Shown in pieces: positions 2,654-5,059 of a stretch of DNA of 64,000 nt. The DNA is taken from the NCBI RefSeq assembly GCF_004216575.1, contig NZ_SGWW01000001.1:620001-684000 (forward strand), read 5' to 3'. Source of the DNA: Microcella putealis (GTDB lineage Bacteria; Actinomycetota; Actinomycetes; Actinomycetales; Microbacteriaceae). A program made the position numbers and the translations under genes. The notes below the pieces were generated by a model, which had not been told where the DNA came from, ran no database searches, and worked only from the letters and a program-made list of their open reading frames with translations. The stretch's first letter is position 1. Each line of letters starts with the position of its first letter.

Positions 2654-2896
2654 CTACGGGCGGTTGTCGAGGTTCGAGATTGCGCCGAGAACGAGGCTGC
2701 GCAGCTCGTCGGGTGCCTTCTCTTGGCAGGCCTCTTTGACCTTGTTGGTCAGGGTGAGGCCGACGAGGTGCTCAGCCGAGCAGTCGTCGCAGTTGGCCAT
2801 GTGGTCGCGGATGTCCTGGCACTGCTGGGGGCTCAGCTCGTTGTGCAGGAACTCCTCGAGCTCGGCCTTGGCTTTGTCGCAGCCGCAGTCGGTCAT
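2654..2896 (-). CDS. rsrA: Mycothiol-system anti-sigma factor RsrA (zinc anti-sigma, ZAS family)
   Basis: 80-residue zinc-binding anti-sigma factor expected to hold SigR inactive in the reduced cytoplasm and to release it when its thiols are oxidised. The ZAS signature H-x3-C-x2-C is visible as His32, Cys36 and Cys39, with further cysteines at 4, 6, 26 and about 59, in keeping with the RsrA/RshA redox switch. Its ATG overlaps the sigR TGA by four bases (ATGA, 2893-2896), so the two are translationally coupled and made in fixed ratio. Length and motif spacing are normal for RsrA. The family assignment is secure; redox sensing is inferred from the family. Confidence 0.93.
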
Positions 2897-3501
2897 GTCG
2901 TGCTCCTGGTGGGTGTCGGGCTTGTCGAGTCGGGGAGGGCGTACCCGCGTTCGCGGGCGTAGTCGGCGAGTTTCTCGCGCAACTGGCGGCGCCCGCGGTG
3001 CAGGCGGCTCATCACGGTGCCGACGGGGGTCTTCATGATGTCGGCGATCTCTTGGTAGGCGAAGCCCTCAACGTCGGCGAGGTAGACGGCGAGGCGGAAG
3101 TCTTCCGGGATTTCCTGCAGCGCGTCTTTCACGGCGCTCGCGGGCATCCGATCGATGGCTTCTGCTTCGGCCGAACGCCCCACGGTCGAGGTCGCTGACT
3201 CGGCGCCGCCGAGCTGCCAGTCTTCGAGCTCTTCGAGCGCCCCCTGGTACGGGTTGCGCTGGTTCTTGCGGTACTGGTTGATGAAGGTGTTCGTGAGGAT
3301 GCGGTACAGCCACGCCTTCAGGTTCGTGCCCTGTTCGAACTGGGCGAACGCCGCGAACGCCTTCACGAACGTCTCTTGCACCAGATCGGCGGCATCGGCG
3401 GGGTTCTTCGTCATGCGCATGGCAGCGCCGTACAGCTGGTCCATGAACGGCAGAGCCTGTTCTTGGAACAACGCGCGCTTGGCCGCAGCCTCGTCAGTCA
3501 T
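2893..3501 (-). CDS. sigR: ECF sigma factor SigR/SigH (thiol-oxidative stress)
   Basis: 202-residue ECF sigma factor. Region 2 is seen as [14 protein letters not shown] and [18 protein letters not shown], and region 4 as the [21 protein letters not shown] helix-turn-helix. It pairs with RsrA immediately downstream. The start given is ATG 3501, preceded by a -10-like TACACT at 3515-3510 only eight bases away and by no Shine-Dalgarno, which suggests a leaderless short form. A second in-frame ATG at 3603, with a good GGGAGG ribosome site, would add 34 residues. The upstream promoter matches the SigR consensus exactly (separate entry). This mirrors the SigR / SigR-prime arrangement described in Streptomyces. 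A still longer open frame upstream is antisense to aroA and was not used. Confidence 0.93.
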
Positions 3502-3509
3502 CGTGCGCC

Positions 3510-3515
3510 AGTGTA
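3510..3515 (-). promoter_or_regulatory. Proximal (constitutive-type) sigR promoter -10 element
   Basis: TACACT on the minus strand ends eight bases before ATG 3501, so transcription would begin at or next to the start codon and give a leaderless mRNA for short SigR. The -35 region is poor. It would correspond to the constitutive p1 promoter of Streptomyces sigR. Confidence 0.5.
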
Positions 3516-3602
3516 CTGACGACGCAGGGGGTACCGACCGTGCGTGGGGTACCGACGCAGCACGAACCTCTACGGGCGCGTCGGTCGTGAGCGTTGCGGT
3601 CA

Positions 3603-3614
3603 TGCACCCTCCCG
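3603..3614 (-). promoter_or_regulatory. Ribosome-binding site and alternative upstream start of sigR (long form)
   Basis: GGGAGGG on the minus strand lies three bases before an in-frame ATG (3603-3601). Translation from here adds 34 residues to SigR. The downstream ATG at 3501 has no such site, so a transcript from the upstream SigR-dependent promoter should favour the long protein. Confidence 0.5.
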
Positions 3615-3656
3615 GCGTCCGATGGATCTGGTCCCGCCGACCGCGTGTGGGCCGAC

Positions 3657-3662
3657 TACCCT
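3657..3662 (+). promoter_or_regulatory. aroA -10 element (leaderless)
   Basis: TACCCT followed by eight bases and the aroA ATG at 3671; no Shine-Dalgarno is present. It lies against the SigR-type promoter of the opposite strand. Confidence 0.45.
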
Positions 3663-3665
3663 GAT

Positions 3666-3691
3666 AACCGATGCTCGTCTCGAATAATTCC
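3666..3691 (-). promoter_or_regulatory. SigR-dependent autoregulatory promoter of sigR (GGAAT-N18-GTT)
   Basis: Reading the minus strand, GGAAT (3691-3687) is followed by exactly 18 bases and then GTT (3668-3666). This is the textbook SigR/SigH recognition sequence. It lies 63 bases upstream of the extended-form ATG at 3603 and would drive the positive feedback loop. It overlaps the -10 element and the first codons of divergent aroA, so SigR binding could interfere with aroA transcription. Confidence 0.75.
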
Positions 3692-5059
3692 GGCCCCCGT
3701 TTCTCGCCGTACGGCGACGAAGACCGCACCGAGGCCGCCACCGGCGGGCCCGGTGACACGCGCTGGGTCGCGCCCACCGCATCCGCCCCCCTCGCCGCCC
3801 GCGTCATGCTGCCGGGCTCGAAGTCGCTGACGAACCGCGAGCTGGTGCTGTCGGCGCTGGCCGATGCGCCGTCGCTGCTACGACGGCCGCTGCACTCGCG
3901 CGACAGCCGCCTCATGATCGAGGCGCTGCGCTCGCTCGGCGTCGGCATCGAGGAGGTCGATGGCGATGGGATGTTCGGCCCCGATCTGCTCGTCACTCCG
4001 GCCGACGAGTTGGCCGGGTCGACCTCGATCGACTGCGGGCTCGCCGGCACCGTGATGCGCTTTCTGCCGCCGCTCGCGGCGCTCGCGCTCGGCCCCGTCG
4101 CCTTCGACGGCGACGAGTCGGCGCGCCGACGCCCGATGCGCACGACGATCGAGTCGCTGCGCGCGCTTGGCGTTGACGTGAACGACGACGGTCGGGGTGC
4201 GCTGCCGTTCAGCCTCTGGGGTACCGGCTCGGTGCGCGGCGGCGAGCTCGAGATCGACGCGAGCGCCTCAAGTCAGTTCGTCAGCGGGCTGCTGCTCGCA
4301 GCGGCCCGCTTCGAGGAGGGCCTGGTGCTGCGCCACACGGGTGAGCACCTGCCGTCGATGCCGCACATCGAGATGACGGTGCAGACGCTCGCCGACCGCG
4401 GCGTCACCGTCGACAGCCCCGAGCGCGGGGTGTGGGTCGTCGCGCCCGGACCGATCGCGGGCCGCGATGTCGAAATTGAACCCGATCTGTCGAACGCCGC
4501 GCCCTTCCTCGCAGCGGCGCTCGTGGCCGGCGGCACCGTAACGATCGACGGCTGGCCCGCGCGCACCACCCAGGTCGGCGCCGACCTCGCCCACCTCCTC
4601 CCCCACTTCGGCGGCACCGTGCGGCACGAGGCTGACGGGGCACTCACGGTCGACGGCGGCGAGGGGCTGCGCGGTGGCCGCGCGATTCCCGGCGTCGAGC
4701 TCGACCTGTCGACCGGCGGCGAACTCGCCCCCGCTCTCGTCGCGCTCGCTGCACTGGCCGACGGGCCGAGCCGCATCACCGGCATCGGGCATCTGCGGGG
4801 CCACGAGACCGACCGGCTTGCCGCGCTCAGCGCTGAGATTTCGGGCCTCGGCGGCGCCATCACTGAACTCGACGACGGTCTCGCTCTCGAGCCCGCGACG
4901 CTCAGCGGCGGGCCGTGGCGCGCCTACGAAGACCACCGCATGGCGACCGCGGGGGCCATCATCGGCCTCGCCGTCGAGGGCGTCGAGGTCGACGACATCA
5001 CGACGACGGCGAAGACCATGCCCGAGTTCCCCGAGCTGTGGCGGGGCATGCTCGCATGA
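3671..5059 (+). CDS. aroA: 3-phosphoshikimate 1-carboxyvinyltransferase (EPSP synthase)
   Basis: 462-residue enzyme of the shikimate pathway that joins phosphoenolpyruvate to shikimate-3-phosphate. Diagnostic blocks are [17 protein letters not shown] near residue 46 (N-terminal signature with the catalytic lysine), [16 protein letters not shown] near 125, the DESARRRPM block, [11 protein letters not shown] near 200, and the C-terminal GHETDRL and [10 protein letters not shown] motifs. Start ATG 3671 fits a leaderless promoter and gives a short extra N-terminus typical of relatives. Its stop overlaps the rsgA start by four bases (ATGA at 5056-5059), so aroA and rsgA are coupled. Divergent from sigR with overlapping promoters. 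Confidence 0.96.

Follow-up and report, generated by a model that had tools for sequence, protein, structure and literature searches.

Two predicted promoters and two in-frame starts of sigR beside aroA in Microcella putealis

How is one sigma factor gene made to yield two protein forms, and what follows if one of its promoters lies across the start of a divergent metabolic gene? The sigR-rsrA locus of Microcella putealis raises both questions. We analysed it in a window of 64,000 nucleotides (the whole stretch of DNA under study) from the 2.54 Mb host genome. The sigR-rsrA pair lies on the minus strand and aroA is divergent from it on the plus strand, with the following features in the window.

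2654..2896, minus strand: rsrA, predicted zinc anti-sigma factor, from the open reading frame list; ATGA four-base overlap with the sigR stop
2893..3603, minus strand: sigR, long form of 236 aa from ATG 3603, from the open reading frame list and TIGR02947
3499..3501, minus strand: short start ATG, without a ribosome site; probably leaderless
3502..3603, minus strand: 34-residue N-terminal extension, in a stop-free sigR frame
3510..3515, minus strand: p1 -10 element TACACT, eight bases before the short start; conserved
3601..3603, minus strand: long start ATG, from the open reading frame list; an upstream in-frame start is conserved
3608..3613, minus strand: GGGAGG ribosome site of the long start, duplex energy -10.5
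3657..3662, plus strand: aroA -10 element TACCCT, eight bases before aroA ATG 3671
3666..3668, minus strand: p2 -10 element GTT, between the aroA -10 element and the aroA ATG; conserved
3671..5059, plus strand: aroA (EPSP synthase), from the open reading frame list; start codon inside p2
3687..3691, minus strand: p2 -35 element GGAAT, inside aroA codons 6-7; conserved

The predicted SigR matches TIGR02947, the model for SigR/SigH actinobacterial ECF sigma factors, with 299.9 bits (cut-off 251.55), and its closest named relative is that of Microcella alkaliphila (97% identity). No second close copy of SigR was found in the host genome, where five more matches showed 26-36% identity. AroA matches TIGR01356 with 353.4 bits (cut-off 287.25). 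The best match of RsrA, TIGR03988, reaches 51.6 bits and lies under its cut-off of 62.5, and the sequence contains the H-x3-C-x2-C motif as HMANCDDC. Between the ends of the 2-oxoglutarate dehydrogenase gene (plus strand) and rsrA (minus strand) we observed a 25-nt inverted repeat, 88% complementary, at 2555-2606, followed by few T on the plus side; this is possibly a terminator for both genes.

An earlier note on this DNA had described GGAAT-N18-GTT at 3691-3666 of the minus strand, an in-frame ATG 3603 with a GGGAGG site, and a further in-frame ATG 3501 lacking a ribosome site and preceded at eight bases by TACACT. Direct reading located each of these (GGGAGG at 3613-3608, TACACT at 3515-3510), and ribosome-site duplex energies were -10.5 for ATG 3603 and -1.1 for ATG 3501. 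At the level of sequence, the two-promoter, two-start design that the note had proposed is strongly supported by conservation, which we assessed in four sets of loci. The Microbacteriaceae loci (n=102) comprise the best 80 of at least 545 loci confirmed in a genome scan, a set biased to close kin; a less biased second sample of 21 loci, out of 24 same-family genomes that matched in an even draw of the order; and the window. The other-family sample holds 59 loci of 12 families, from 245 genomes with a match, and includes none of families f10, f11, f12 and f19; the other-order sample holds 20 loci from 131 matching genomes.

Promoter p2 and the upstream start

The bare motif of p2 occurs once in the window against a shuffle mean of 0.33 (0.03 once the flanks include W and S), so the window alone is weak evidence and did not exclude a chance match. 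We therefore scanned the relatives for GGAAT-N17..19-GTT at most 250 nt upstream of the short sigR start. The motif was found there in 79 of the best 80 of at least 545 relatives, the lone exception being a locus whose contig ends at that place (L071), and elsewhere in the 881,680 bases of the same 80 loci it occurred 4 times, both strands counted. Because it is kept upstream of sigR in this way, we regard the p2 motif as real and rejected the chance match. It was also present in 21/21 loci of the less biased Microbacteriaceae sample and in 48/59 other-family loci, or 57/59 when GGAAC was allowed. An A directly follows GGAAT in 85/88 loci where p2 overlaps aroA, in 11/11 where the two are separate and in 2/2 without aroA, a feature not forced by the definition of overlap given below.

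In the host genome the N18 form of the motif occurs 33 times versus 5 for the reversed pattern. A further 19 matches have the N19 spacing; the 17 downstream genes that we scanned all lie behind N18 matches. The motif precedes trxB, sufB and cysK, and these three, together with two luciferase-like monooxygenases, a glyoxalase-family protein and an EmrB-type transporter, fit a SigR-type set. Seemingly unrelated genes also lie behind it, namely those for citrate synthase, a PfkB kinase, an AsnC-type regulator, an antiporter-type subunit and a periplasmic binding protein. Some of the 17 scanned genes gave no family match, and no Clp protease gene was seen among these 17.

Downstream of p2, a stop-free stretch of 34 codons separates ATG 3603 from ATG 3501. 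An in-frame ATG or GTG lies between p2 and the short start in 100/102 Microbacteriaceae loci, the remaining two showing one TTG alone and one contig end, and upstream in-frame ATG or GTG codons were found in 54/58 other-family loci. Among the best 80 of at least 545 relatives, 78 have an upstream start, and in 68 of these a strong ribosome site accompanies it. When 16 codons upstream of the short start were compared in three frames, stops occurred in 0/102 Microbacteriaceae loci in the sigR frame versus 41 and 26 in the other frames; in other families the counts were 1/58 versus 17 and 8. An unconstrained upstream frame was rejected on these stop counts. In the separate ribosome-site energy analysis, the zero stops of the sigR frame arise by construction and are not counted as evidence, and the stops of frame 1 include ones inside the -10 element and GTGATG.

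The extension itself is more variable. Many Microbacteriaceae extensions open with M-x-A-T-L-(E/D)-R (MTATL in the window); outside this family the sequences differ much and their beginnings are less alike. The expectation that p2 and the long start would be kept in relatives was borne out for p2 and for an upstream in-frame start, but not for the start codon, which may be ATG, GTG or TTG. In M. alkaliphila (L006), TTG stands at the place of ATG 3603 and reads (TTG)SATL; the in-frame ATG found there is another codon, 66 nt before the short start. Between the window and M. alkaliphila, p2 and the aroA start are identical and p1 and the short start nearly so, whereas the DNA between these two regions is diverged and gapped; such a pattern is expected if both regions are under constraint. 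Inside the sigR extension, at 3528-3556 of the minus strand, GTCGGTACCCC was seen by eye twice, 18 nt apart. The stretch that bears it is missing from M. alkaliphila, and the repeat tool did not list the pair at 3528-3556.

Promoter p1 and the short start

Translation from ATG 3501 would give a SigR of 202 aa, the short form. The short start is an in-frame ATG or GTG preceded by TANNNT-N8 in 102/102 Microbacteriaceae loci (80/80 of the best 80 of at least 545, 21/21 of the less biased sample, and the window) and in 58/59 other-family loci; in the other two frames the arrangement was found in 0/181 loci. On the sigR strand of the best 80 of at least 545 loci, 82 of 5186 ATG codons are preceded by TANNNT-N8, and 80 of these 82 are the short sigR start. 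The arrangement was also found in 8/20 other-order loci (L204, L208-L212, L218 and L221), with one further locus having N7. To judge from these loci, the leaderless-type short start either predates the host's order or arose more than once outside that order.

Ribosome-site energies point the same way in close relatives. Their mean over the best 80 of at least 545 loci was -1.42 at the short start, -3.14 for background and -7.74 at the best upstream start, the last value being flattered by the choice of the best of several starts. In other families the short start, at -2.87 versus -3.05 for background, is near background and not weaker. Seven of the 21 short starts in the second Microbacteriaceae sample score -5 or better; these strong scores probably come from a -10 element of the form TAGGAT (7 loci), which resembles a ribosome site. 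A TTG-type -35 element for p1 at 15-19 nt was absent in 101/102 Microbacteriaceae loci. Control of p1 by WblC/WhiB7 was considered and rejected, as there is no AT-rich stretch upstream (A+T 32% on average, 30% in the window).

Because the -10 element lies eight bases before the start, no ribosome site is present and both features are seen across relatives, the short SigR form is probably leaderless. At a normal distance between a -10 element and its transcript start, the p1 message would begin 0-3 nt before ATG 3501.

Overlap of p2 with the start of aroA

The earlier note had also placed p2 over the -10 element and start codon of aroA. We scored this overlap where the aroA ATG lies 13 bases before ATTCC and in frame with aroA, in the 99 Microbacteriaceae loci that have both p2 and aroA beside sigR; three of the 102 were omitted, two without aroA in reach and one without p2. 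The overlap is real and was found in 88/99 loci (66/77 from the best 80 of at least 545, 21/21 of the less biased sample, and the window), all of which carry an aroA -10 element (TANNNT at 7, 8 or 9 nt; 88/88). In the other 11/99, aroA is separated from p2, and its coupling to p2 is therefore not indispensable. Codon 6 of aroA is TAT in 85/88 overlap loci, compared with TAC 110 and TAT 17 elsewhere in those aroA genes, and codon 7 is TCC in 88/88. We dropped these codons as proof of constraint at the nucleotide level, since GGAAT at a fixed 13 bases forces xAT TCC.

A quick, midpoint-rooted tree of 99 rows, 96 of them different, shows 4 changes of the overlap state, at least 3 of which are forced by well-supported branches. 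Since the row that diverges most, placed on a long branch, has the overlap, this state is most simply read as ancestral in Microbacteriaceae and lost about three times. The sigR-aroA locus of L070, whose record bears the title Planococcus sp. APC 4015, groups inside Microbacterium on this tree, and the assembly is probably mislabelled or mixed.

In other families aroA is divergent at a distance of 0.7-2.4 kb in 44/59 loci, and it was not found in the examined stretch in 15/59. We scanned seven open reading frames lying between sigR and aroA in this sample; 7/7 match DoxX, 6 of them above cut-off. In these loci (L124, L126, L131, L137, L139, L160 and L161) the DoxX-type gene is divergent and starts about 76-123 nt from the -10 side of p2. 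Given this intervening gene, the overlap probably arose when a DoxX-type gene was lost from the sigR-aroA interval.

The -10 elements of p2 and aroA are neighbours (3666-3668 and 3657-3662) and are not shared. Transcription is predicted to start at about 3658-3660 from p2 and at about 3669-3671 for aroA. With starts about 10-12 bp apart, the p2 -35 element in aroA codons 6-7 and the p2 -10 element between the aroA -10 element and ATG, SigR polymerase and housekeeping polymerase should be unable to occupy the site together.

Proposed circuit and known systems

We consider it likely that sigR is autoregulated, that its two protein forms are fixed by promoter choice and that the polymerases of p2 and aroA are mutually exclusive. 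Without stress, housekeeping transcription from p1 (-10 TACACT) would give an mRNA beginning at or within about 3 bases of ATG 3501, whose leaderless translation would yield short SigR, held by RsrA. Under thiol stress RsrA would release SigR, which would read p2 (GGAAT-N18-GTT). The longer p2 mRNA would carry GGGAGG and ATG 3603 and give long SigR', with 34 more residues; since the inner ATG 3501 lacks a ribosome site, the short form would hardly be made from this mRNA, if at all. The long form may be a short-lived amplifier, by analogy with Streptomyces SigR'. With p2 across the aroA start, SigR and housekeeping polymerases would not be on the site together.

Whether the overlap matters for aroA is a separate issue. 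We put it slightly above even that both promoters and both starts work and that the overlap has no regulatory effect, being packing after gene loss with aroA expressed enough. The separation of 11/99 loci in about three losses and the DoxX-type gene between sigR and aroA in other families favour this view, as does the behaviour of basal E. coli bidirectional promoters, which do not compete (PMC12825309). Against it, the overlap has been kept in 88/99 loci, and a strongly activated side of such a promoter can repress the other (PMC12825309). By that analogy, lower aroA expression under thiol stress is plausible. An unlikely extension is that in Microbacteriaceae sigR's own stress promoter and a leaderless promoter of aroA, an essential metabolic gene, make up a two-sigma bidirectional promoter at which thiol stress would flip polymerase orientation, raise SigR' and shut off EPSP synthase, the SigR form (leaderless short or ribosome-site-dependent long) being set purely by promoter choice. 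The thiolated AroA of PMC4360819 was set aside as irrelevant, as it comes from Bacillus and is given there as chorismate mutase.

An alternative in which the short form is the sole protein made in quantity seems improbable to us; translation of the p2 mRNA would then begin at ATG 3501 by reinitiation or internal entry, with the upstream frame a leader or incidental. The poor conservation of the extension outside Microbacteriaceae and the varying long-form start codon would suit this, but the stop-free frame of all 102 loci, the strong ribosome site at the upstream start (68/78, best 80 of at least 545 relatives) and the recurrent M-x-A-T-L pattern in Microbacteriaceae argue otherwise. We give almost no credence to p1 alone driving sigR with p2 a chance match, for which the 0.33 matches expected in the window speak, against the 79/80 relatives (best 80 of at least 545) with p2 and 4 matches elsewhere in 881,680 bases, and the motif before trxB, sufB and cysK.

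The preferred reading, autoregulation with two forms set by promoter choice, can be compared with known systems. The Streptomyces sigR-rsrA locus has the two promoters sigRp1 and sigRp2 and an unstable SigR' (PMC4921905, PMC5472188). The earlier note had equated the present design with it, and this holds for the two promoters and two starts: in both, an upstream SigR-dependent promoter precedes an N-terminally extended form (here as predicted from the DNA) and a downstream promoter the short form, and rsrA follows with an ATGA overlap. It does not hold for the short start, which in Streptomyces is GTC behind AGGAGGTG (PMC5472188) and here is an ATG of leaderless type that lacks a ribosome site and follows its -10 element at eight bases. 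The Streptomyces-type own ribosome site of the short form is thus missing here (energy -1.1 at ATG 3501). In Streptomyces-type loci the p2 transcript would include this ribosome site as well, unlike here. The extension has 34 residues here versus 55-58 in Streptomyces; the AT-rich WblC-type stretch upstream of p1 in Streptomyces is absent here, and the p2/aroA overlap is a further difference. Among our other-order loci, three of family f33 (L205-L207) are presumably Streptomyces-like; all three show AGGAGGTG, and L205 and L206 show AGGAGGTG and GGTCCGGTC in place of TANNNT-N8.

The combination of a leaderless p1 with an upstream p2 has precedent in Mycobacterium tuberculosis sigE, which is reported to have a leaderless downstream p1 and an upstream stress-type p2 (PMC4921905); this is a different ECF sigma factor gene, and the passage on it mentions no aroA overlap. 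Corynebacterium glutamicum sigH-rshA has several promoters before its SigH/SigR-type gene, including a SigH-type element beside SigA-type -10 elements; its transcripts were mapped to 22, 89 and 93 nt upstream of the start codon and hence are not leaderless (PMC3489674). At E. coli bidirectional promoters, starts 10, 18 or 23 bp apart are commonest, around a shared -10 element, and opposing polymerases at divergent starts about 10 bp apart cannot bind together (PMC12825309). Those promoters use one sigma factor and a shared -10 element, whereas two sigma factors and neighbouring, different -10 elements are predicted here.

The SigR/SigR' two-isoform circuit is already known, and the present locus is a variant of it. 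Neither a leaderless sigR, as predicted here for sampled families throughout an order, nor a two-sigma aroA-sigR overlap, as seen here in most Microbacteriaceae, was found in the open-licence PMC literature, which does not establish their absence from print. With two modes of translation, leaderless and by ribosome site, each promoter would have a protein form of its own. Microbacteriaceae would be a case where stress and housekeeping sigma factors should compete for one site, with the 11 separated loci as natural controls for whether a link between stress and aromatic amino-acid synthesis is costly or beneficial. Together, these comparisons suggest a wide occurrence of the SigR/SigR' feedback design in Actinomycetia, built differently outside Streptomyces.
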